A program made the translations under genes and the position numbers. 64,000 nt of DNA from Acidobacteriota bacterium. GTDB lineage: Bacteria; Acidobacteriota; Terriglobia; Bryobacterales; Bryobacteraceae. The notes beneath the pieces are model-generated. The model worked only from the letters and a program-made list of their open reading frames with translations, ran no database searches and had not been told where the DNA came from. Every line of letters starts with the position of its first letter. Position 1 is the stretch's first letter. Where the stretch lies: assembly GCA_016213775.1 (NCBI GenBank), contig JACQZR010000283.1:1-64000 (forward strand). Reading direction: 5' to 3'. Below, in pieces: positions 7,950 to 56,955 of this stretch.

Positions 7950-8020
7950 ATTTTCCGCGTTCCCCTACGTTGGGGTCTCTGTGGCCCCATCGTGTATCAT
8001 CGTTCATGCTGAGGAGGCAA

Positions 8021-11000
8021 ATGCGCAAACTGACGTGGATTTTGCTGGTTCTGCTCTGCCCGGCTCTGTCCGCGCAATCGCCACCGAGCCTCGACTACAC
8101 CCTCAGTACGGTCGCCGGCAGTTTTGATCCCGCCGATGGGCCGACGGCTCTCTCCACGGGCCTCTTTCGTCCCCAGAACGTCGCCGTCGATTCCAGCGGC
8201 AATGTCTACATCGCCGACACCTCCAACCAGCGTATCCGCAAGGTCTCGCCGGACGGCAGCATTCGCACGATCGCGGGCAATGGATTCTCGGACTACAAGG
8301 GCGATGGAGGCCCCGCCACATCGGCATCGCTCTACTCGCCGACGGCGATGGTACTTGACTCCAGCGGCAACCTTTTCTTCGCGGACCGCGACAACAGCCG
8401 CATTCGCAGAGTGTCGCCGGATGGAACCATCCGCACCGTCGCCGGCAACGGTGTCAGCAAGTTCGATGGAGACGGGGGGAGCGCCACCGCTGCCTCCATT
8501 CAACATCCCACCGGCATTGCCTTCGACGCCAATGGCACCCTCTACATTGCCGACCGTGATAACAACCGAATCCGTGCCGTTTCTCCCGAAGGAGTCATTC
8601 GCACGGTAGCGGGCGATGGAACGCGCGGCTACTCTGGTGACGCTTCAGCAGCCACCAGCGCCGCTCTGAATGCTCCTATGAGCGTGGCGGTGGATAGCAC
8701 CGGAAATCTCTATATCGCCGACACCGGCAACCACCGCATCCGCGTGGTCTCTGCCACGGGAACTATTCGCACCATCGCCGGCGACGGCAACGCCCGCTTC
8801 GCCGGCGACAACGGTCCGGCCACGTCCGCGTCGCTATCCCGGCCACACGGTCTCGCCTTCGACCGCAATGGCAACCTTTTCTTTGCCGACCGCGATAACC
8901 TCCGCATCCGCCGCATCTCCACCGACGGAAACATTCGCACAGTGGCCGGCAGCGGACGCTATGGCTTTTCCGGCGATGGCGAAGCCGCAACCGCAGCCAG
9001 GCTGTCGTCTTCATATGGCGTCGCGGTCGATTCCAATGGCAACCTCTACATCGCCGACACCCTGAACAGCCGCATCCGGCGCGTCGGTTCCGACGGGATC
9101 ATCCGTACGTTTGCCGGAAACGGCAGTGTGGGCTATGGTGGCGACGGCGGCGCCGGCACTGCCGCCGCCCTCTATTTTCCGGCGGGTGTCGCCGTGGATG
9201 GATCCGGCGCGGTCTACATCGGAGACACCGGCAACAGCCGCATTCGCAAGGTAACGCCGGATGGCATTATCCAAACGATTGCCGGAAACGGCGACGAGGG
9301 ATTTTCCGGAGACGGCGGCCCGGCAACAGACGCTTCGCTGACTGAGCCACAAGGCCTGGCGGTCGATTCCGCGGGGAATCTATTCATCGCCGACACAACG
9401 AACAACCGCGTTCGCAGGGTTGCTTCGAATGGAACCATTACTACCGTCGCCGGCACGGGCGCTTCTGGATTCTCCGGCGACGACGGCCCTGCCACCAGTG
9501 CCCGGCTCGATACCCCAACCTCAGTTGCGGTGGACGCGAATGGCGTTCTGTATATCGCCGATACGGGCAACCATCGCATCCGGCGGGTCTCTCGCGACGG
9601 TTTGATTCAGACAATTGCCGGCACCGGGCGAGCGGCGTTTGGCGGCGATGCAGCGGCTGCCACGGGCGCATCACTCAACGTCCCCAGCGGACTTGCGCTG
9701 AGCGCCAACGGCCTGCTCTTTATCGCCGACAGCGGGAACCACCGCATCCGCCGCATCTCCCCGGACGGTATGATCCGGACGGTTGCCGGAAACGGCCAGG
9801 ACGACTACTCTGGTGACGGCGGCAATGCGCTTTCCGCTGCTCTTTCGTACCCGCAGGGTGTCGCAGTGGATGCCGCGGGCAATCTTTTTATCGGCGATTC
9901 CAACAGTAACCGCATCCGGAAGGTTTCCGCGGACGGCATTATGAGCACCGTCGCGGGAACCGCCAATTCAGGCTACAACGGCGACGGCAATGCGACATCG
10001 TCCTCGCTGTGGTACCCACAAGCGCTGGCCGTGGATCGTTCCGGCAACGTCTACTTCGCCGATACCTTTAACAACCGCGTCCGGAAACTCAGCCAGGGTG
10101 TGACGTGCCCATACATTGTCACGCCGGCGGCCGTGACCGCGACTGCGGCTGGAGGCCCGGGGGTCATCACCATCACTGCGCCTTCGGGCTGTACATGGAC
10201 TGCAATCAGCAACGCGCCATTCGTCACCATCACGTCCGCCGCCATTGGCACCGGAAGCGGAACCGTGAATTACTCGGTGGCCGCGAACACTTCCACTTCG
10301 CCACGCACGGGAACACTGACTATCGCCAGCCAAACCGTCGTCATCAATCAAGCTGGTTACATACCGCCAATCACCGTGGCTCCGTCCAGTCTCTCGTTTT
10401 CCGTGGCCGCGGGATCTCCGGCGCAAACACAAACGATTCTGGTGGACACCAAAGGATATGTGACACCCTTCACTGTTGCCGTCTCGTCGGCGCCATGGCT
10501 GAAAGCGACGCCCGCGGTTGCCTTCACTTCGGCTGTTCTGGCCGTTACCGTGGATCCGGCGGGACTCGCCGCCAACACCTACACTGCCACCATCACACTG
10601 TCTTCCGAGTCTGCGTCCAACAGTCCGAGAATTCCCGTCACACTCACTATTGCCGCGCCGCCGAGGCCTACGCTCACGCTTACGCCCCTGCTGTTCTCCT
10701 TCGATTATGAAACCGGCGGTGAGGTTCCGGCACCGGCCTCTTTCACTGTGCACAGTAGCGGTGCGCCCTTCAACTTCAGTGCCGTGACGTCTACAAACGA
10801 CGGCGCGAATTGGCTGCGTCTGGCGGCATCATCCGGTGTGACGCCATCGACGCTCGACATCTCCGTGAACCCTTCGGGCCTCTCCGCGGGGACTTATACC
10901 GGACGCATCACGGTGTCGGCTCCTGCGGCAGGTAACAGCCCACAGTCGATTCCAGTGACGCTTACGGTGACATCGCCGGCCGTTACATCCAATCTGCTGG

Positions 11001-12934
11001 TATCTCCGCAGGCAGGGCTTGAATTCACTTTCCAGACCGGCGGCGCCGGGCCGGCAGTGCAGAACCTGTTCATTGCCAGTTCCGGCGACGCGATCACTTT
11101 CACCGCGGCAGCCAACTCGTCCAGCCGCTGGTTATCAGTGCAGCCCGCGCAGGGGACCACCAATGCAGTGCTTGCTGTCGCCGTCGATCCCTCCGGCCTC
11201 TCCGCCGGCCAATATGAAGGCAGCGTCACAGTCACGGGGGGCGGCCAAACCGTCACGGTGCCAGTGCGCTTCGCCGTCACGCAACCTGCGCCGCCAGCGC
11301 TTCAAACGGACACCACGAGGGTGATTTGGTCGACGCCCGCGGGTGTCGCGCCCCCGCCCTCGCCAGTGCGTGTCATCAATGCCGGAGCCAGTCCAGTCAC
11401 CTTCAACGTCCTTGCCAGCACGGATGACAGCGCTGGTTGGCTCACGGCGTCAAGAACGGAAGCAAGCGCGGACGCCCAGCATCCCGCAACAATAGTGATC
11501 ACGGCGGATCCGTCGTCGCTGGGCCCTGGTGTTTACTCCGGCAAAGTGGAAATCAGTGCGCCGCCACAAGCGCCTATCATTATCCCGGTTGCGCTTGCGG
11601 TGAGCGCCGGCAAGAAGCTCGTTCTGTCGCAGCAGAGCATGAGCTTCACAGCCGCCGCGGGCAGACCGTCCAGCGCCCTGCCACAGGACTTGAGCGTACT
11701 CTCGCTCGGCGGCGCCATCTCCTGGACCGCTTCCGTCACGGCGGGAGCGAACTGGCTCAGTCTCTCGCAATCTTCGGGGAGCGTCAGCGCGGGCTCGCTG
11801 AATCGTGTGCAGGTGAACATCAACTCGCAGAGCCTCGCACCCGGTGAGTATCACGGCGAGATCGTCTTCGATTCTCCCGATGTCGACAACCGCCCTGAGA
11901 AAGTCACGGTGGTGCTGGTGGTGCGTTCGGCTAACGTGCTTCCACCGGCTGCCCTGCCAGCGGGACTCGCCTTCACCGCAGCCGCCGGCAACTCGCCCGC
12001 GTCGCGGGACGTGACAGTCCTCTACGGTGCAGCTTCGGCGAACACACGCTGGTCGGCATCTGTTTCTCTCGATCCAGATAGCCCCGGAGGCACGCCGCTG
12101 TGGCTGAGACTCGACAGGTCCTCGGGCACGTTCAACGATCTGGCAGGGTCCGCCACGAGCCTTACGTTGCGGCCATCTACGTCCGGACTCAGGCCGGGCG
12201 TTCCCTATCGAGCGACGGTCTTCCTCACTATCTCCGGCAACGTGCCTCTCAGCATTCCGGTGCTGCTCGTGCTCGCACCAGGGGACGCTTCGCCGGCCAA
12301 GCCCAGCCTCTCGCGCAAGGCCGCATGCACGCCCACGGGATATCATCCCATCTACACAACAGTGGATCAGAACTTCATCGTGGCCGCGGGGCAATCCGCG
12401 GCTTTGGAACTCGTCATCCTGGATGATTGCGGCAATCCGGTGAGTGCCGGGGCCGTCGGCGGAGTTGTCTCCAACGGAGATCGCCCCTTCGACTTGGTCT
12501 CTCTTGGTGACGGCGCTTGGCGCGCCACCTACGTTCCCAGGCGTGCCAATGGACTTGTCACGCTCTCAGTGGTCGCCACCGATGGTCAATCCGTGGAGAG
12601 TGCCGCCCCCCCGGTACACGGCATCGTGACAGGATCCATCAATGGTCCGGTTCTCGACGCCGGCCGGCCGTTCCTCGCCCCGGATGGTCAACAGCAGCTC
12701 GCCATCGCGCCAGGAACAGTATTTCGCATTCAAGGGTCCAACTTCACTTCGAATGCGGGTCCTACGCGAGTGTTCCTTGGCGCGAGTGAACTGACGCTGC
12801 AATTCGTCTCGCACAATCACATCATCGCGGTCGCACCGGAGGACCTTGCCACGGACCGCGCCCTTCCGCTGGTTGTTCAAGTGGGCGAAGCGCTGTCCGC
12901 TCCGGAGAGCGTCCCGATCGCGGCGCGACATTAG
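8021..12934 (+). CDS. Secreted NHL-propeller / BACON-repeat surface protein
   Basis: A 1637-aa secreted protein. ATG 8021 is chosen because GAGGAGG lies just upstream and MRKLTWILLVLLCPALSAQ is a clean signal peptide; the open frame from 7970 adds no sensible N-terminus. Twelve NHL repeats of about 56 aa (for example YIADTGNHRIRRVS, then TVAGNG) occupy residues about 49-690 and should fold as beta-propellers. A BACON domain follows (CTWTAISNAPFVTI...), then several 100-aa Ig/BACON-like units. The C-terminus (GTVFRIQGSNFTSNAGPTRV onward) resembles the TIGR03437 Solibacter domain. The role is probably carbohydrate or matrix binding at the cell surface. It converges on the next operon with a 4-bp overlap of stop codons. 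Confidence 0.9.
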   Translation: MRKLTWILLVLLCPALSAQSPPSLDYTLSTVAGSFDPADGPTALSTGLFRPQNVAVDSSGNVYIADTSNQRIRKVSPDGSIRTIAGNGFSDYKGDGGPATSASLYSPTAMVLDSSGNLFFADRDNSRIRRVSPDGTIRTVAGNGVSKFDGDGGSATAASIQHPTGIAFDANGTLYIADRDNNRIRAVSPEGVIRTVAGDGTRGYSGDASAATSAALNAPMSVAVDSTGNLYIADTGNHRIRVVSATGTIRTIAGDGNARFAGDNGPATSASLSRPHGLAFDRNGNLFFADRDNLRIRRISTDGNIRTVAGSGRYGFSGDGEAATAARLSSSYGVAVDSNGNLYIADTLNSRIRRVGSDGIIRTFAGNGSVGYGGDGGAGTAAALYFPAGVAVDGSGAVYIGDTGNSRIRKVTPDGIIQTIAGNGDEGFSGDGGPATDASLTEPQGLAVDSAGNLFIADTTNNRVRRVASNGTITTVAGTGASGFSGDDGPATSARLDTPTSVAVDANGVLYIADTGNHRIRRVSRDGLIQTIAGTGRAAFGGDAAAATGASLNVPSGLALSANGLLFIADSGNHRIRRISPDGMIRTVAGNGQDDYSGDGGNALSAALSYPQGVAVDAAGNLFIGDSNSNRIRKVSADGIMSTVAGTANSGYNGDGNATSSSLWYPQALAVDRSGNVYFADTFNNRVRKLSQGVTCPYIVTPAAVTATAAGGPGVITITAPSGCTWTAISNAPFVTITSAAIGTGSGTVNYSVAANTSTSPRTGTLTIASQTVVINQAGYIPPITVAPSSLSFSVAAGSPAQTQTILVDTKGYVTPFTVAVSSAPWLKATPAVAFTSAVLAVTVDPAGLAANTYTATITLSSESASNSPRIPVTLTIAAPPRPTLTLTPLLFSFDYETGGEVPAPASFTVHSSGAPFNFSAVTSTNDGANWLRLAASSGVTPSTLDISVNPSGLSAGTYTGRITVSAPAAGNSPQSIPVTLTVTSPAVTSNLLVSPQAGLEFTFQTGGAGPAVQNLFIASSGDAITFTAAANSSSRWLSVQPAQGTTNAVLAVAVDPSGLSAGQYEGSVTVTGGGQTVTVPVRFAVTQPAPPALQTDTTRVIWSTPAGVAPPPSPVRVINAGASPVTFNVLASTDDSAGWLTASRTEASADAQHPATIVITADPSSLGPGVYSGKVEISAPPQAPIIIPVALAVSAGKKLVLSQQSMSFTAAAGRPSSALPQDLSVLSLGGAISWTASVTAGANWLSLSQSSGSVSAGSLNRVQVNINSQSLAPGEYHGEIVFDSPDVDNRPEKVTVVLVVRSANVLPPAALPAGLAFTAAAGNSPASRDVTVLYGAASANTRWSASVSLDPDSPGGTPLWLRLDRSSGTFNDLAGSATSLTLRPSTSGLRPGVPYRATVFLTISGNVPLSIPVLLVLAPGDASPAKPSLSRKAACTPTGYHPIYTTVDQNFIVAAGQSAALELVILDDCGNPVSAGAVGGVVSNGDRPFDLVSLGDGAWRATYVPRRANGLVTLSVVATDGQSVESAAPPVHGIVTGSINGPVLDAGRPFLAPDGQQQLAIAPGTVFRIQGSNFTSNAGPTRVFLGASELTLQFVSHNHIIAVAPEDLATDRALPLVVQVGEALSAPESVPIAARH
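8165..10098 (+). repeat. Twelve tandem NHL-encoding units (~165 bp period)
   Basis: Twelve in-frame units, each encoding a VDSxGNxYIADxxNxRIRxV block followed by TVAGNG. They are diverged at the DNA level, so this is an old protein repeat and not a recent tandem array. Confidence 0.9.
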
Positions 12935-47632: not shown

Positions 47633-49732
47633 TTACCTCCCAAAATAGCCACTCACATCGACCACGACATTCGTCCTGCGGTAAGCGTAAACATCAATCG
47701 AACCACCCAGTCCCGCCGGGATAATCCCGCCTCCGGTGACAGTCTGCCCCTCAAAGGCGTTCAGTATCGATGCATTGGGCCGCGCCTGGCCAGTGGGGTA
47801 GACCGTCACAAACGGCAGCGCCGAACCTCCCGGAATGGCTGTTACGTTGATCGTGTAGCCCTTGGCGGTAGCTGGAATGCCGCTGCAGTTCCCCGCGGAA
47901 GGAATGTTGATCGTGTTAGTTGAGTCGTCCGCATAAGATGTCGAGTCCTGCGCCCGGCACTGCGTCACGGGGAAGTAATAAAGTCCTTGTCCGTTATCGG
48001 GAGCGAAGTAGCCACTAATATCCACAAGGAAGTCCGTCCGGGCAAAAGCGAACACGGCAATGGAACCGTCCGCACTCGCCGGAACTATCACACTGTTTGC
48101 CAGAATGCGCCCCGCGAACGAGTTAATACTACTCACGTTGGGCTGTGAGCCGCCCGCCGGCCAAAGGGTCATGAACGGCAATGGTTGTGGCGGGATAACC
48201 GTAAGGGTCATCGAGTAAGCGGCTGCCCCGGAAGGAATAGTGCAGTGCGGGGATTGTGGGAAGCGGACGATCCTCGTCTCGCCAGGATTCATCCTGGGCG
48301 GGCCAAACGGTGACGCCGGCTGGCGATAGGCAATGCGCGTCTCGATCACCCTGCAAGGCGTTAGGGGGTAATACACGAGGTTGGTTCCGCCGGAGATCGC
48401 ATCCGTGAAGTAACCGGAGATGTCAATCAGCATGTCGGTGTCATTGGAGGCGTAAACGCTAATCGCCCCTGAACCCGCCGCGACTGTGGTCGAATTCGCA
48501 ACGATCTGCCCGTCCGGCGATCGCACTGTCCAGAAGTTTGGCCTTGTTGTTCCGCCGGGCCAAAGGGTGACGAAATCAAGCGGCCCACGCGGAATCACAG
48601 TCACGTTCAGAACATAAGCTTTGGCGCTTGAGGGAACAGCGCACACATTGGAATTGGCCAGCGTCAACGTTCGTGTCTGGCCCGATGGAATGAAGGGAGG
48701 CCCGAATGCCCCGGTGCGCCCTTCGAAGTTGTATGCGGCACGGGTTTCCATCACCCGGCACGGGTCGAGGGGAACGAAGCGTAATCCGCTCGCGGTGCCC
48801 GCCTGAGTGACCGTGACGGCCAACCCGGCAATCGCCAGTGTTGCGGATCGCGGGCTCGAAGACGGGTTCGCCAATACGTCGAATGTCACTCTGTCCGGGC
48901 CTGTCTGCGCAATCACGAACGACGAAGTGTTGACCAAGGTCCAGTTGCAGCCGACTGGATTGGTCACCTGCACGGTGAAGCCCGTGCCTCCCGCCGCCGG
49001 GACGCTGAAGCTCGATTGGCTGAGCGAGAATGCGCACGGCAGCGGCCGAAGGTTGTAGGTGAACTCTCCCCTCACCGGGTAACTCAGCCTACTCAGAGCC
49101 ATTTCGCGCGTCACCGCCGCCGTGCCGGACAGCTCCAACCCTGAGGCGGGAAAGGGGAGCCTCAGTGGCATATCGGGGCCCCAACCGATGGGTTCCTGCG
49201 GCCTGAATGCAACCTGAGTGGGTGCTGGGGGGCAGATCTGCGTATTCTTCCAGTCCGCTTTGACGCCGTCATCGGCGAATATCAGGCTCCAGGTGTCAGA
49301 ACCTGAATCGAACTGAAGGAACACCTGCCGCGGTTGCCCATCCATAGCGCTCGTCGACAGACTCCCCTCACCCGTCACCTCGTGAGTTATGGTGCAACCA
49401 GGTGGGAAGGGTGCGCTCTGCTGGTCGTTTATCCTGACCGTCCCACCAGTGACAGTGCCCATCCAGCCGAGCAGGGTGGAAGTTTCCAACCTGACGGTTC
49501 CCTGGATGATATGGCTGATCCCGTGACTGCCGGTAACGCCCGGGGCATACGGTGCATTCCCGGATTGCGTAAAGTTCATTGCAATCGTACCCTCCCATCC
49601 CGCCACCGGGCGGAAGCGCGTCTGCGACGGTCCGAGCGGTATTTGCGCCGCCAGAACACCAGGCAAAACCGCGAGTATCAGTGCTTTCGCGAGGACAAGG
49701 GCTGGTGAGTTACTCACTCCAATCCTCCACAT
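47633..49732 (-). CDS. Surface protein with BACON-like domain and three PCRxxDTR repeats
   Basis: A 699-aa paralogue of the protein at 40483. It has a signal peptide (about residues 1-29), a unique N-terminal 230 residues and a BACON-like domain (CAFSLSQSSFSVPAAGG, then VTNPVGCNWTLVN). Three of the same 125-aa repeats follow, with PCRVMETR, PCRVIETR and CRAQDS at their starts and SGYF at their ends. ATG 49732 is chosen because AAGGAGA lies 5 nt upstream; the frame before it is a decayed sigma region. It ends without a membrane anchor. Confidence 0.82.
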   Translation of the reverse strand: MWRIGVSNSPALVLAKALILAVLPGVLAAQIPLGPSQTRFRPVAGWEGTIAMNFTQSGNAPYAPGVTGSHGISHIIQGTVRLETSTLLGWMGTVTGGTVRINDQQSAPFPPGCTITHEVTGEGSLSTSAMDGQPRQVFLQFDSGSDTWSLIFADDGVKADWKNTQICPPAPTQVAFRPQEPIGWGPDMPLRLPFPASGLELSGTAAVTREMALSRLSYPVRGEFTYNLRPLPCAFSLSQSSFSVPAAGGTGFTVQVTNPVGCNWTLVNTSSFVIAQTGPDRVTFDVLANPSSSPRSATLAIAGLAVTVTQAGTASGLRFVPLDPCRVMETRAAYNFEGRTGAFGPPFIPSGQTRTLTLANSNVCAVPSSAKAYVLNVTVIPRGPLDFVTLWPGGTTRPNFWTVRSPDGQIVANSTTVAAGSGAISVYASNDTDMLIDISGYFTDAISGGTNLVYYPLTPCRVIETRIAYRQPASPFGPPRMNPGETRIVRFPQSPHCTIPSGAAAYSMTLTVIPPQPLPFMTLWPAGGSQPNVSSINSFAGRILANSVIVPASADGSIAVFAFARTDFLVDISGYFAPDNGQGLYYFPVTQCRAQDSTSYADDSTNTINIPSAGNCSGIPATAKGYTINVTAIPGGSALPFVTVYPTGQARPNASILNAFEGQTVTGGGIIPAGLGGSIDVYAYRRTNVVVDVSGYFGR

Positions 49733-49761
49733 AGAATCTCCTTCCTTGCACATCTTGCGCA

Positions 49762-49808
49762 CTCCATCGAACACATGCGCGCAAAATCCACCAAAGTGGG
49801 CCAGCTCG
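49762..49808. promoter_or_regulatory. Repeated upstream element, copy 2, with sigma-gene scrap
   Basis: Carries CTCCATCGAACACATGCGC, 12 bp, then AAAGTGGGCCAGCTCG, as at 43408. The following bases to about 49850 still resemble the bases around the ECF sigma start (CGGACCGCGAGGTCGCGAAAG against CAGACCGTGAGCGAGGAAAG, shortened here). Only a few codons survive. It is 30-76 bp upstream of the minus-strand gene starting at 49732. Confidence 0.55.
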
Positions 49809-49852
49809 GGTGAAGAAACTGGTGCCCGGACCGCGAGGTCGCGAAAGCACAA

Positions 49853-50783: not shown

Positions 50784-52985
50784 TCAGCGCGCGTGCATCT
50801 TGCTGACCGCGAAGTCTGCCCGCTCCCCGTGGCAGACCGAACAGGACTCACCGAGGGTTGTTGTCGCCGAATAGGTATGGGCCGCGACGGATTTCGTATC
50901 GTGACAGCCAAGGCACGCCGAAGCCGCCGGCCCTAGAGGGGAGTAGAACTCGCGCGGAGCAGGCGAACTGACCATTCCCTCGGGAGTAGGCAACTGATTG
51001 GAATTGTTCATATGGCACTTACCGCAGTCGCGCCGGTCACCCGGGAAGCGCAGGCCATTATAGTTATAGACGCCGTTCGTCCTGTATATCGTGAAGTCGC
51101 GGGTCAACCCTTCTCCGCTGTGGATGCGGTGAGGCATGAACCGGAAGTTGATGGATTGCGGGACTGTGCCGGGAGGTACGTTGCGGCCGGCCGCCCGCGA
51201 ACCGTTAGGATCATCGACGGCGGCCGGGTTGTGGCACATCTGGCATAGCTCGCCTGCATTCCTGCGGGAGCCTCCGTGCAAAGCAAGTTGATCGTGGCAG
51301 ACGTTGCACTTGTCGGTATCCACTACTTGCCGTCGAGGCGCAACCTCGCTTCCATCGACGCTGAAGTAGTAGACGGGGTTATTGGCGAACTCGTTCACCG
51401 GGAAGCTCTGCCCCGTGCGCGGTCCGCGGATGGTGACAGCGCGGGATGAAGTGGCGCCAATGGCGAAGCTGCCTTTCGCATCCCTGGGGATGGCAGCCGT
51501 AAAAGTATACGTGAATTCCGAGAGAGTCGGCTTGACGGTAGCGAGAGCATTCTCGGTGGCTGGAGAGCCGGCCGCATTACGTGTAACGAACGTATAATCC
51601 GTGGTTGGACCGGCCAGGATAAAGGCCAACGAGGTGAGCTTGGTGGCATCCACCGCATTCCCTTGCTTGTCGCTGGCCTTGAACGACACGGTGGGCCTGT
51701 CGCCCGGATTCGTGCCGGTTACGCCCGTGATCTCCAGTTTCAGGCCGGCCAGTTGCGTGGACTTCCAAGGCATCGTATGTGCTCCGGCGACAGAAAGATC
51801 GAATTCCGCGCCGTCGGGCGGGTGACAGGTGCCACATTGACGGTCGTCGGTTTGAACCACGCCGGCGTGGTTGGCTCCGGTGGCAAAGTCCACATCGTCG
51901 TGGCAGGAACCGCAAGCGGCGCGCGATGGGCTGTTCTTCCAGTTGTCGGACTGGGTTCCCTTCTGATGGCAGGTGGTGCAGTTGCGGACATCCTGCGGCC
52001 AGACAACGTTCGAATAGTCGTGAATGGATCGCTGACGCCCAATAATCTCGTACGGCGTTCCGGCGGGCCGGGCGCCTTCCTCAACAGGCCCGGGCGTAGA
52101 TCCGGAGGCGGTTGTCGCTGTTCCGCCGCCGCTGGTTCCGAGTATGTTCAGAGCCCTGCCGCTGACGCTGGGCAGGAAAGCGCCCATGTGGATCTTGTGA
52201 ATGTATACCTTGGCGTCGAGTGAGTTGCCGGTATACGGGTCTGTGTTCGAGGGGTTATGGCACAGAATGCACAACCGGATTTCCCGGCGCGTGCCGCCAT
52301 GCAATGCAAGCGAGTTATGGCACTGGTTGCAGTTTTCCGTGCGCACCACATCGCGGACCTGGGTGACTGCAACGCCCGAAGGAACGAAATCCATGATGGC
52401 ATTGGCAACGGTCCCCAGCGAGTTGAGAGGGAAGCCGAACTCAGTCAGGTCGCGTCGCGAATAAATGGCTAAGGTGTGGGTGGCGTTCGCCTCGAAGTTG
52501 GCGGGCAGCCTGTTGCCGAAGGTGTACGTGTATACCCCGTTGCCCAGACTGGCGTAGACTCCGCCGGAATCCGCGGCGGGATAGGCGGAAGTCACGCTTG
52601 CGGAACCGCAGGTTGTGCAATCGGGAACCGGCACGGTTGTCACGGGATTGGTGAAGTAATTTGTGTATTGAGTATCCCCGGGCCTGATTCGAGCCAGCAC
52701 AAAACTGGTGCTGACCGGTCCGGGTGTCTCGACGCCTAGCCTGTCGAGCCCTTGGGAGGCGCTGTCGGCGATGCGGAAGGTCACGGTGACGGTGAGCGAA
52801 GTGACGCTCACTTTCTGGATATCCAGTTTGAGACCCGGCCGAATGAAAGATGCCTCATGCTCGGTCAGATAGTAGGCTTTTTGGTTCGGTCCGTATCGAG
52901 TCCTGATTCCGTTGTCTCTGGCGATGATGCCGGCGGCAACCAACACGAAAATGATCGACACCCAAATGGCTTTTCGACTGTTCAC
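50784..52985 (-). CDS. OmcA/MtrC-like decaheme c-type cytochrome
   Basis: A 733-aa exported cytochrome with exactly ten C-x-x-C-H sites. Five lie in residues 219-388 (CNQCH, CILCH, CTTCH, CGSCH, CGTCH) and five in 560 to about 720 (CNVCH, CQMCH, CGKCH, CLGCH, CSVCH). Each pentahaem block is preceded by a beta-rich domain of about 170-200 residues. This is the architecture of the OmcA/MtrC family, outer-surface electron conduits of metal-reducing bacteria. The N-terminus MNSRKAIWVSIIFVLVAAG is a signal or anchor without a lipobox cysteine, unlike typical family members. No MtrA/MtrB-type porin partner is in the window. It is divergent from a Cys-rich regulator. Confidence 0.92.
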   Translation of the reverse strand: MNSRKAIWVSIIFVLVAAGIIARDNGIRTRYGPNQKAYYLTEHEASFIRPGLKLDIQKVSVTSLTVTVTFRIADSASQGLDRLGVETPGPVSTSFVLARIRPGDTQYTNYFTNPVTTVPVPDCTTCGSASVTSAYPAADSGGVYASLGNGVYTYTFGNRLPANFEANATHTLAIYSRRDLTEFGFPLNSLGTVANAIMDFVPSGVAVTQVRDVVRTENCNQCHNSLALHGGTRREIRLCILCHNPSNTDPYTGNSLDAKVYIHKIHMGAFLPSVSGRALNILGTSGGGTATTASGSTPGPVEEGARPAGTPYEIIGRQRSIHDYSNVVWPQDVRNCTTCHQKGTQSDNWKNSPSRAACGSCHDDVDFATGANHAGVVQTDDRQCGTCHPPDGAEFDLSVAGAHTMPWKSTQLAGLKLEITGVTGTNPGDRPTVSFKASDKQGNAVDATKLTSLAFILAGPTTDYTFVTRNAAGSPATENALATVKPTLSEFTYTFTAAIPRDAKGSFAIGATSSRAVTIRGPRTGQSFPVNEFANNPVYYFSVDGSEVAPRRQVVDTDKCNVCHDQLALHGGSRRNAGELCQMCHNPAAVDDPNGSRAAGRNVPPGTVPQSINFRFMPHRIHSGEGLTRDFTIYRTNGVYNYNGLRFPGDRRDCGKCHMNNSNQLPTPEGMVSSPAPREFYSPLGPAASACLGCHDTKSVAAHTYSATTTLGESCSVCHGERADFAVSKMHAR

Positions 52986-53149
52986 GAAAACCTCCCTGAT
53001 GACTTGTTCGCCGCCTCATTATCAGCCGCAAGGTTCCGGCAATCAATGAGAAAGCGACGGATGCCGCGGAGACCATCCGCGTTTTATTCATTTGCCGCTG
53101 GGACGGACCGCGGTCGCCCGTGGCACGGACCTTCGTTGCAACAAAAGTC

Positions 53150-53178
53150 TTGATTTTTCGATTTTTGAGATCTATACT
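53150..53178 (+). promoter_or_regulatory. Sigma-70-like promoter for the HTH/two-CW regulator
   Basis: TTGATT (53150-53155) and TATACT (53173-53178) are separated by 17 bp, and the ATG follows 21 nt later. This is the best housekeeping-type promoter in the window. Confidence 0.6.
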
Positions 53179-53199
53179 GGCTGGCGAAAAGGCCGATCA

Positions 53200-54003
53200 A
53201 TGGGTGAGGCAAGCACCGGGTGGTTGACGTCCGGGCAGGCGGCGACACTCTGCTCCGTCAAGCCGGACACGGTCCAGAAGTGGATCCGCAAGGGACGGCT
53301 TTGCGCGCAACGCACGGCGGGCGGGCACTACCGGATCGCGCAACAGGATATCGAACCGTTTCTGACGGGGCCTGTGGCGGCGCGATGGTTCGCCCCGCCT
53401 CCGGCCGGCTGCCGGCCGCAGCCGCTACGATGCTGGGAGTATCTGAACGACAACGGCGCCGTGCGCGACAGTTGCATGAAGTGCGTCGTTTATCGCGTGC
53501 GCGCCGCGTGGTGTTTCGAGGTGGCCGGACTCGGCCCGGAAATTGGGCACGCAAGGACGTTCTGCAGCGCTCAGAACTCCTGTCAGGATTGCGTCTACTA
53601 TCAGCGGGTGAGCGGAACAGCAAAGGTGCTGGTGATCTCGGCGGATGAAAGACTGGTGTCGCGATTGAGCGTGGAAGGTCACGACGGGCTTTCGCTGACG
53701 TTTACCGCCAACGCCTATGAGGCTTCCGCTCTGATCGGCGCAATACGTCCTGGGTTTGTCATCGTGGACGTGGACCTGTGCGGGGCGGGAGAACCGCCGC
53801 TGCTGGAATGCCTGCTTCACGAGAGCCGGGTACCCGGGCTGAGGATCATCCGTTGCGGGCTGCGTGGACATCAGGTCGCCACGCCCTCCGGCAACAGCCT
53901 CATTCCCGCCTGGCTGGAAAAACCGTTTGATCGTGCGGCCATCGATCGGATCATCCGCAGCATACCGGTGGAACAGTGCCCAACCGCCGCACCAGATCGT
54001 TGA
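53200..54003 (+). CDS. HTH + cysteine-rich two-CW + receiver-like regulator
   Basis: A 267-aa cytoplasmic protein. Residues 8-55 form a MerR/excisionase-type HTH (LTSGQAATLCSVKPDTVQKW). Residues 75-135 hold a cysteine cluster with C78-W, C92-x2-C95, C105, C122 and C128-x2-C131, resembling the two-CW domain of metal-reducing and anaerobic bacteria. Residues 140-265 look like a response-regulator receiver with VIVDVDL at the phosphoacceptor strand and LEKPF at the usual lysine position. ATG 53200 fits the promoter upstream. Divergence from the decaheme cytochrome gene suggests it controls that gene, perhaps sensing redox or metal through the cysteines. Confidence 0.75.
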   Translation: MGEASTGWLTSGQAATLCSVKPDTVQKWIRKGRLCAQRTAGGHYRIAQQDIEPFLTGPVAARWFAPPPAGCRPQPLRCWEYLNDNGAVRDSCMKCVVYRVRAAWCFEVAGLGPEIGHARTFCSAQNSCQDCVYYQRVSGTAKVLVISADERLVSRLSVEGHDGLSLTFTANAYEASALIGAIRPGFVIVDVDLCGAGEPPLLECLLHESRVPGLRIIRCGLRGHQVATPSGNSLIPAWLEKPFDRAAIDRIIRSIPVEQCPTAAPDR

Positions 54004-55020: not shown

Positions 55021-56955
55021 ATGCGATTCCTGTTGCTGTGGTTGGCCGTGCTGCCGGGCTATGCGGCCGATGCGGAAGCGGGGCGCAAGCAGTATGCCGC
55101 GCGGTGCGCGATGTGTCACGGCGCGGATGGCGCGGGCGGCGAGCGCGGTCCCGGGATCACGGCGAAGTTGGACCGGCCGGATCTGGAGCTGATGAAGCTG
55201 ATCGCGGATGGCCTGCCGGCGAAGGGGATGCCTCCCACGAACGCGGATGGGGGGCAGGTGCGCGACATCATCGCGTTCCTGCGAACGATTCAGACGGTAA
55301 ATGACACGAGTGTTCGCGAGCGGATCAGGCTGGCGTCAGGCGCCGTCATCGAAGGAGTGGTGCGCGGGCGCAGCAACTTCAGCATGCAGGTGCAGATGGA
55401 GGATGGGATTCGACTGCTGCGACGCGTGAGCGATGGGTGGCAAGACGCGAAGGCGGGCGCGGGTTGGGGGAGTTATCACGGCGCGGAGAACGGCAACCGT
55501 CATAGCAAGCTGCGACAGATTGACACGAGCAATGTGGCCCGGATGAGCTTGCGCTGGGCGTATTCGATTCCATCTGCGGGACGCCTGCAGGTAACTCCGG
55601 TGGTGGTGGACGGGGTGATGTATGTGACGGCGGTGAATCAGGTGCATGCGCTGGATTCGGGTACGGGCCGGGTGATCTGGAAGTATCAACGGCCGCGGTC
55701 GAGCGGGCTTGTCGGCGATGCCGCGAGCGGGATCAATCGCGGTGTTGCCGTGGCTGGCCGGCGGCTTTTTATGGTGACCGACAATGCGCATTTGCTGGCG
55801 ATCGACCGTATCACGGGGAAGCTGCTTTGGGATCGCGAGATGGCGGATTCGCGCGATCACTATGGTGCGACCGCTGCGCCGCTGGTGATTCATGGGCTGG
55901 TGGTGTCGGGGATCTCGGGGGGCGATGAAGGCGTGCGCGGGTTTCTCGCTGCGTTCTCGCAGGAGACTGGCGAGCGCGTGTGGCAGTTCTGGACTGTGCC
56001 CAAGCGCGGTGAGCCGCTGGCGGAAACGTGGAAAGGTGATGCGCTGGAACATGGCTGCGCGACGACGTGGCTGACCGGGTCGTATGATGCATCGCAGGAT
56101 TTGCTGTTGTGGCCCACGGGGAATCCGTGTCCCGATTACAACGGCGATGGACGCATCGGAGACAACCTGTATTCCGATTCGGTTTTGGCGCTCGAGCCGC
56201 GGACAGGGAAGCTGCGCTGGCATTACCAGTTCACACCGCATGATACGCATGATTGGGATGCTCAGGAACCACTGCTGCTTGTGGATGCGGAGTGGCAGGG
56301 GCGCGTGCGCAAGCTGGTGCTGCAGGCCAATCGCAATGGGTTCTTCTATGTGTTGGACCGTGAGACGGGTCGGCCGCTGCTGGCGAAGCCGTTTGTGAAG
56401 AAGCTGACGTGGGCCCGCGAGATCGGCCCGGATGGGCGGCCGGTTTTGAATCCCGGTGCGCTCCCGGCGGAGGCCGGTGTGCGTGCGTGTCCGGCAGTGG
56501 AAGGGGCGACCAACTGGTTCTCGTCGGCGTTTCATCCGGGGACCCAATTGTTCTATGTGCAGGCGTTGGAGAAGTGCAACATATATACAAAGAAGCCGGG
56601 CGAGTGGGTTCGGGGGCAGTCGTATTATGACGGCACGGCGAAGGGTGTTCCGGGGGAACCAGGGCAGAAGTTCCTGCGCGCGATCGATTTCCGAACGGGG
56701 AAAGTGGTTTGGGAGTATGCGCAGTCAGGGACAGCGAATTCGTGGGGCGGGGTGTTGAGTACGGATGGCGGTTTAGTTTTTTTTGGGGAGGACAGTGGTG
56801 CGTTCGCGGCCGCGGATGCGAAGACGGGGAAGCTGTTGTGGCACGTGCCGTTGAATGAGACATGGAAGGCGAGTCCGATGACGTATGAGATGGATGGGCG
56901 GCAGTTGGTGGGGGTTGCGGCTGGAGGCAGCGTGATGGTGTTTGGAGTGGACTGA
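55021..56955 (+). CDS. PQQ-dependent dehydrogenase with N-terminal cytochrome c
   Basis: A 644-aa periplasmic quinohaemoprotein. It has a signal peptide (about 1-16), one haem site C29-A-M-C-H33 in an N-terminal cytochrome c domain, then an eight-bladed PQQ propeller with W-motifs such as GRVIWKYQRP and GKLLWDREM. In quinohaemoprotein alcohol dehydrogenases the cytochrome is usually C-terminal, so the order here is reversed. The catalytic aspartate is in D411-W-D413; the second aspartate is the position that in XoxF-type enzymes binds lanthanide. The vicinal cysteine pair of methanol dehydrogenases is missing (A-A-S before GINRGVAV). The substrate is an alcohol or sugar, undetermined. Confidence 0.92.
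   Translation: MRFLLLWLAVLPGYAADAEAGRKQYAARCAMCHGADGAGGERGPGITAKLDRPDLELMKLIADGLPAKGMPPTNADGGQVRDIIAFLRTIQTVNDTSVRERIRLASGAVIEGVVRGRSNFSMQVQMEDGIRLLRRVSDGWQDAKAGAGWGSYHGAENGNRHSKLRQIDTSNVARMSLRWAYSIPSAGRLQVTPVVVDGVMYVTAVNQVHALDSGTGRVIWKYQRPRSSGLVGDAASGINRGVAVAGRRLFMVTDNAHLLAIDRITGKLLWDREMADSRDHYGATAAPLVIHGLVVSGISGGDEGVRGFLAAFSQETGERVWQFWTVPKRGEPLAETWKGDALEHGCATTWLTGSYDASQDLLLWPTGNPCPDYNGDGRIGDNLYSDSVLALEPRTGKLRWHYQFTPHDTHDWDAQEPLLLVDAEWQGRVRKLVLQANRNGFFYVLDRETGRPLLAKPFVKKLTWAREIGPDGRPVLNPGALPAEAGVRACPAVEGATNWFSSAFHPGTQLFYVQALEKCNIYTKKPGEWVRGQSYYDGTAKGVPGEPGQKFLRAIDFRTGKVVWEYAQSGTANSWGGVLSTDGGLVFFGEDSGAFAAADAKTGKLLWHVPLNETWKASPMTYEMDGRQLVGVAAGGSVMVFGVD

Follow-up and report, generated by a model that had tools for sequence, protein, structure and literature searches.

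The 64,000-nucleotide stretch of Bryobacteraceae DNA analysed here (the window) carries a gene for a multihaem c-type cytochrome divergent from a regulator gene, and it raises the question of how such a protein could exchange electrons with the outside when no partner gene adjoins it. For comparison we used 73 copies (rows), an uneven sample made up of 60 stretches, chosen for the most part by decreasing similarity to the window cytochrome, together with loci from the host genome and named loci. Two rows were left out before the neighbourhood count, L046, which is truncated, and L083, which shares its contig with L053, and the 72-row sets used for haem, histidine and lipobox conservation also leave out the myxococcal copy L085.

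A decahaem cytochrome of the OmcA/MtrC family

Direct counting bore out the two pentahaem blocks described in the sequence-only reading: the 733-aa protein contains exactly ten CxxCH sites, five per block (Table 1). Shuffling its residues 5000 times gave a mean of 0.02 CxxCH and a maximum of 2, which ruled out a chance origin. Ten more histidines (229, 263, 266, 373, 403, 570, 619, 622, 703 and 731) were conserved, nine of them in 72/72 rows and H619 in 71/72; they are enough for one distal haem ligand each and may serve as such. A ribosome-binding-like AGGGAGG lies shortly 5' of the GTG start codon. The first cysteine occurs no earlier than residue 123, confirming that the protein has no lipobox; the lipobox cysteine after the signal peptide, which marks outer-membrane lipoproteins of the Shewanella type, is absent.

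Table 1. Features of the cytochrome gene and its divergent neighbour, with positions in the window.
Feature	Position	Strand	Remarks
OmcA/MtrC-family decahaem c-type cytochrome	50784..52985	-	733 aa; GTG start; coordinates take in the stop codon
Putative signal peptide, residues 1 to about 24, without lipobox cysteine	52914..52985	-	Hydrophobic stretch; putative cleavage
Pentahaem block 1, CxxCH at residues 219, 239, 336, 358, 384	51822..52331	-	Cys and His conserved in 72/72 rows
Pentahaem block 2, CxxCH at residues 560, 581, 654, 691, 715	50829..51308	-	Cys and His conserved in 72/72 rows
Beta-rich stretch separating the pentahaem blocks, residues 416-542	51360..51740	-	Predicted secondary structure; ten-residue blocks have pLDDT 30-83
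HTH_17/MerR-type divergent regulator	53200..54003	+	Cysteine-rich CW.../CF... middle, weakly receiver-like C-terminus

The earlier description of the cytochrome as OmcA/MtrC-like holds by sequence. NCBIfam TIGR03507 (OmcA/MtrC) scored 456.7 bits against a cut-off of 209.3, aligning residues 64-731 of 733 with positions 6-672 of the 672-position profile, and PF22113 (MtrC/MtrF II/IV domain) was present twice. The best match in a PDB sequence search was MtrF (3pmq, E 6.7e-31), and all 12 matches at E ≤ 1 belonged to the OmcA/MtrC family (MtrF, OmcA, MtrC, UndA).

The predicted fold gave weaker support. An AlphaFold model built from six sequences had a mean pLDDT of 43.6 and the order beta, haem, beta, haem, in which the predicted beta-rich stretch at residues 416-542 matches the position of domain III of MtrC. 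When this low-confidence model was compared with known structures, 16 of 16 Foldseek matches at E ≤ 0.001 were MtrC, UndA, OmcA or MtrF, and the top 11 chains in VIA-align were all of the MtrC/OmcA type (Z 9.8-14.0, rmsd 4.5-12.4); long fold matches had an rmsd of about 10 to 15 Å. Because the model is poor, a four-domain MtrC-like fold is consistent with these results rather than proven. The window gene belongs to the OmcA/MtrC family of decahaem cytochromes, and its ten haem sites are all intact.

Among the window ORFs of at least 100 aa, none was MtrA-like or porin-like by profiles made for this analysis, in agreement with the reported lack of an adjoining porin or periplasmic decahaem partner. 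On the window contig, TIGR03508 (MtrA) gave nothing over cut-off, its sole match being the cytochrome itself (24.2 bits), and TIGR03509 (MtrB/PioB) gave no match. The adjacent mtrA and mtrB-like porin genes expected of an MtrCAB locus were thus not found among these window ORFs, and such genes lie on other contigs.

Conduit genes and the lipid anchor

The host genome (10.96 Mb, 314 contigs; the window is on contig 213, C213) encodes five full-length TIGR03507 proteins, on C143, C115, C177, C213 (the window copy) and C270, the last lying right where its contig begins, so that one flank is missing. MtrA was found over the TIGR03508 cut-off on C230, C177 and C143. On C177, MtrC, MtrA and MtrB lie within 10 kb, with a gap of 4.4 kb and two other ORFs between MtrC and MtrA. 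The C177 porin was the sole TIGR03509 match in the host, scoring 208.3 bits for the whole protein, under the cut-off of 240.05, and it scored 305.4 bits with Pfam MtrB_PioB (cut-off 23). On C143, MtrC, a 674-aa porin-like protein and a decahaem MtrA follow in a row; C230 carries MtrA and a 669-aa porin-like protein, with no MtrC in the 20 kb read. The C143 and C230 porins are mutually related (E 4e-23), and neither matched the MtrB models (TIGR03509, Pfam MtrB_PioB). Given these three MtrA-porin sets, the idea that the genome holds no partner was rejected. The type II secretin GspD, the type II component searched, scored over cut-off on C6. Cytochrom_NNT (NapC/NirT type) had four matches in the host genome.

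Relatives of the window cytochrome (E ≤ 1e-30) were found in 92 of 121 sampled family genomes, host included, and in 62 of 76 genera, while MtrA (E ≤ 1e-35) was found in 113 of the 121. According to the available excerpts, a 2013 survey covering MtrA- and MtrC-type proteins reported decahaem cytochromes of Solibacter (PMC3669403), and mtrCAB in Bryobacterales was published in 2022 (PMC8805035). The view of the sequence-only reading that such a cytochrome is a surprise in a soil acidobacterium of this kind is therefore not supported, although one source speaks on its side: the accessible text of a 2018 acidobacterial survey describes mtrA/mtrB homologues with no complete mtr/omc operon and says that, of two described iron reducers, Geothrix alone had an omcA/mtrC-like cluster (PMC5900883). 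Another paper, in the portion available, names both MtrC and Bryobacteraceae (PMC8841776). A limited literature search turned up no publication describing lone MtrC paralogues from Bryobacteraceae. The window gene is one more member of a known family; what is mildly new is the recurrence of lone, anchor-free copies.

MtrA was encoded within 5 kb of 49 of the 73 copies. It was not found within that distance in 19 copies with at least 4 kb read on both sides, including the window copy and L085, and the remaining 5 were too near a contig end to judge. A recognised porin lay within 6 kb in 43 of the 49 MtrA-linked copies (40 of the C143/C230 type, 2 MtrB/PioB and 1 of a third type). Among 21 cluster loci, picked for holding both MtrC (21/21) and MtrA (21/21), 20 also had a porin and 11 an additional ORF downstream, the one in L084 having four CxxCH. 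Pfam MtrB_PioB matched 10 of 32 porins at E ≤ 0.01. A PDB search with these 32 porins gave no MtrB match; phmmer with the C177 MtrB likewise gave no match, so the search is not discriminating. Profile comparison of the 32 porins with two MtrB/PioB porins returned a probability of 1.8%, and an AlphaFold model of a cluster porin, built from two sequences, had a mean pLDDT of 26.9. What points to a porin of the MtrB kind is therefore its gene order, its size and weak matches.

The missing lipobox proved common. A lipobox regex applied to the aligned N-terminal region (55 residues, with start codons as predicted), which has some cysteine in 27 of 72 rows, found no lipobox in 47 of the 49 MtrA-linked copies and in 68 of the 72 rows. 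Of its four matches, those in L100 and L125 are plausible, the L140 match lies upstream of the likely start and the L138 match falls inside the hydrophobic stretch; an earlier regex run on 73 rows gave 5 matches. We therefore rejected the missing lipobox as evidence of a special route. The claim that electron exit must use another route is likewise not supported, since three MtrA-porin sets are encoded in the genome and nearly all MtrA-linked copies lack the lipobox too. When MtrF and OmcA of Shewanella are made without a lipobox, they turn up in the medium, according to the available part of one study (PMC6929479).

Origin and possible role of the window copy

In a quick maximum-likelihood tree of the 73 rows, the window copy paired with an MtrC-like protein of the Solibacteraceae bacterium SbA4 (L081; SH-aLRT 99). 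The pair stood apart from a main group of 68 rows that is itself well supported, and L082 and L111 were next nearest by tree path. The SbA4 protein is 58% identical to the window cytochrome over 733 columns, shares an extra CxxC in domain I and also has no lipobox; unlike the window copy, it has MtrA and a porin directly downstream. All three nearest relatives have MtrA and a porin, each of a different type, within 4 kb, and besides frames antisense to the cytochrome, the cytochrome alone matched between the window and these loci. Because all three are placed near MtrA and a porin, the window copy is best seen as a detached MtrC paralogue, and most simply it would have lost, or moved away from, its partners. 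SbA4 still has MtrA and a porin of its own, so the real partners of the window copy may have been lost. A starred branch of five lone rows, none near MtrA, unites the host C115 copy with rows from both sampled genomes of the host's genus and two further rows, suggesting that detached copies can persist.

The window protein also resembles MtrC of the Bryobacterales mtrCAB (Group 5), with which it shares a sequence family (Baker et al. 2022, PMC8805035); unlike Group 5 MtrC, it has no adjoining mtrA or porin. The mtrC-mtrA-porin order in our survey, with its downstream ORF in about half of the loci, fits the Group 5 mtrCAB of Acidobacteriia, in which a tetrahaem gene lies downstream of mtrB (PMC8805035). 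Baker et al. sought extra mtrC only next to mtrCAB, and none is reported for Group 5 in the accessible part of that paper (PMC8805035). The window cytochrome resembles Shewanella OmcA and UndA in having ten haems (UndA has eleven), in the beta-haem-beta-haem order of its low-confidence model and in not being paired with its own MtrA/B, as excerpts of PMC8805035 describe for those proteins. In the fold alignment it is 18-20% identical to OmcA and UndA. OmcA differs in being lipid-anchored (PMC6929479, excerpt) and encoded beside mtrCAB, whereas the window copy lacks a lipobox and has no mtr gene in its vicinity.

We think it rather probable that the window gene encodes a detached MtrC paralogue working like OmcA, reduced outside the cell by conduits encoded elsewhere. 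This reading starts from the family, the haem set, the lack of an anchor site and the conduit genes on other contigs. The ancestor would have been the MtrC of an mtrC-mtrA-porin cluster, such as those in which the nearest relatives still stand. The protein would enter the periplasm by its putative signal peptide and there be loaded with ten haems. In Shewanella, OmcA and MtrC are reportedly moved across the outer membrane by type II secretion, and by analogy this is the most likely route for the window protein. Unanchored, it would be soluble or held at the surface by contacts, would be reduced by an MtrA-porin(-MtrC) conduit whose genes lie elsewhere in the genome and would hand the electrons on to an acceptor outside the cell, for instance Fe(III), Mn(IV) or humic matter.

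A split operon would explain the separation differently, with the window cytochrome as the outer partner of the C230 MtrA-porin pair and a complete conduit encoded at two places. That pair has no MtrC nearby, and of the host's three sets it is nearest to the MtrA and porin of SbA4 beside the window's closest relative (191 and 70.5 bits). The two MtrA proteins, however, are only about 36% identical, and C230-type pairs had no MtrC at any of the 12 other loci read (7 to 13 kb each; 11 of the 12 highest-scoring MtrA rows and one lower row), so the pair seems complete alone. The genome with the closest cytochrome relative (G049) has a C230-type pair too (L162). We regard a split operon as improbable.

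We are similarly doubtful that the cytochrome is an unanchored periplasmic carrier or store, relaying electrons to conduits or detoxifying oxidants there. Its missing lipobox, the lack of an adjoining partner gene and the presumptive nature of its outer-membrane export would fit this, but the lipobox is equally missing from nearly all copies near MtrA and so is no mark of a periplasmic form, and the similarity to extracellular MtrC/OmcA runs over nearly the whole length. Least credible is the reading that an mtrC-mtrA-porin cluster has lost its other genes and that this one is a relic in decay: the three nearest kin retain MtrA and a porin nearby where the window copy has none, and the same genome carries a truncated TIGR03507 copy on C105 (296-aa frame, 5 CxxCH), but the window gene is full length, with AGGGAGG, ten haem sites and ten further histidines all intact.

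Bryobacteraceae may keep a set of stand-alone, anchor-free MtrC paralogues as secreted, soluble or loosely bound extracellular terminal reductases that several conduits share and that regulators of their own switch, unlike the Shewanella proteins with their lipid anchors and operon partners; we put this generalization forward tentatively, as a possibility that we somewhat doubt. Soil acidobacteria are abundant, and little is known of how they live without oxygen. The frequency of MtrC-type proteins and MtrA, the recurrent lone copies and the mostly absent anchor now make mineral or humic respiration in these bacteria testable, as well as whether MtrC requires any anchor.

The divergent regulator

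Taking ATG at 53200 as the regulator start leaves 214 bases between the divergent genes. The arrangement had implied a pairing of regulator and cytochrome, which we did not see elsewhere. Regulator relatives (E ≤ 1e-12) occurred in 15 of 121 family genomes, host included; G049 was not among them. Of the other 14 genomes, 4 had no OmcA/MtrC match at E ≤ 1e-30 and 10 had one. In the 9 of these 10 whose matches could be placed (the place of the match in the tenth was not listed), none lay on the contig of the regulator, among the matches listed.

An MtrC-profile scan of 8 regulator loci (L167-L174) found no MtrC, and in the remaining 8, scanned for CxxCH only, no ORF had ten. ORFs with at least four CxxCH were present at 4 of these 16 other regulator loci (one from the host) and at 1 of 32 hand-picked stretches (hypergeometric P 0.037). 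Because this threshold was set after the first 8 loci and the loci differ in length, a link between the regulator and multihaem cytochromes is a lead only.

The sequence-only reading had called this gene a two-CW regulator. A divergent HTH_17/MerR-type gene with a cysteine-rich middle is indeed present, while the name was given by no library model: no named model for a two-CW or DVU0259-type identity scored over cut-off. NF045717 (DVU0259_DivK) matched the C-terminal part only (E 0.00099; 19.3 bits against a cut-off of 160), and our literature search for 'two-CW domain' found nothing. Seven cysteines are conserved across the window regulator and nine relatives.

Porin types and conduit composition

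The closest relative of the cytochrome (58% identical), in Solibacteraceae bacterium SbA4, adjoins a porin of the type found on host contigs C143 and C230, whereas at locus L111 another near relative lies 1.5 kb from a porin of the MtrB/PioB type (Pfam MtrB_PioB, 291.8 bits). Because the porin types at these two loci differ, conduit components seem to have been exchanged.

On host contig C230, a second MtrA-porin pair was found with no MtrC within the 20 kb read. Among other genomes (L155-L166), MtrA was adjoined by a porin and MtrC was absent at 12 of 12 loci, with 7-13 kb read at each. These MtrC-less pairs resemble the MtoAB/PioAB conduits in composition.

Two further OmcA/MtrC copies were observed. 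The copy on host contig C105 is truncated: its frame of 296 aa contains 5 CxxCH and stops 492 bases short of the contig end. The relative at L114 carries 11 CxxCH and lies about 2 kb from an oppositely oriented ten-CxxCH copy.

Features discussed and their coordinates
Feature	Location	Coordinates
HTH/cysteine-rich regulator	window	53200-54003
Additional CxxC, cytochrome domain I	window	about 52608-52619
PQQ-type quinoprotein	window	55021-56955
739 aa ORF	window	47633-49852
Cytochrome relative and nearby MtrB/PioB porin	L111	1992-8147
Second MtrA-porin pair	L043 (C230)	8014-11010
Truncated OmcA/MtrC copy	L046 (C105)	9157-10047
11-CxxCH OmcA/MtrC relative	L114	10235-12304

Additional cysteines in domain I

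Domain I of the cytochrome contains an additional CxxC without His, formed by C123 and C126, possibly a disulphide or redox switch. The SbA4 relative also has a CxxC (GCKTC) near that position; in the 72-row alignment of the cytochrome and its relatives, 2 rows have Cys at the position of C123 and 1 row has it at that of C126.

The divergent regulator and other window ORFs

The regulator contains seven conserved cysteines. Assorted multihaem cytochromes were observed near its relatives at 4 of the 16 other loci (L171, L172, L173 and L182) vs 1 of 32 control stretches (P 0.037), in a comparison whose threshold was chosen afterwards and whose control stretches were picked by hand.

The quinoprotein has a cytochrome c domain at its N-terminus, and its top model, 'acido-empty-quinoprotein group A', scored 504.5 bits, below the cut-off of 650. 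The 739 aa ORF showed apparent internal repeats; it also matched BACON weakly, scoring 20.7 bits against a cut-off of 25.
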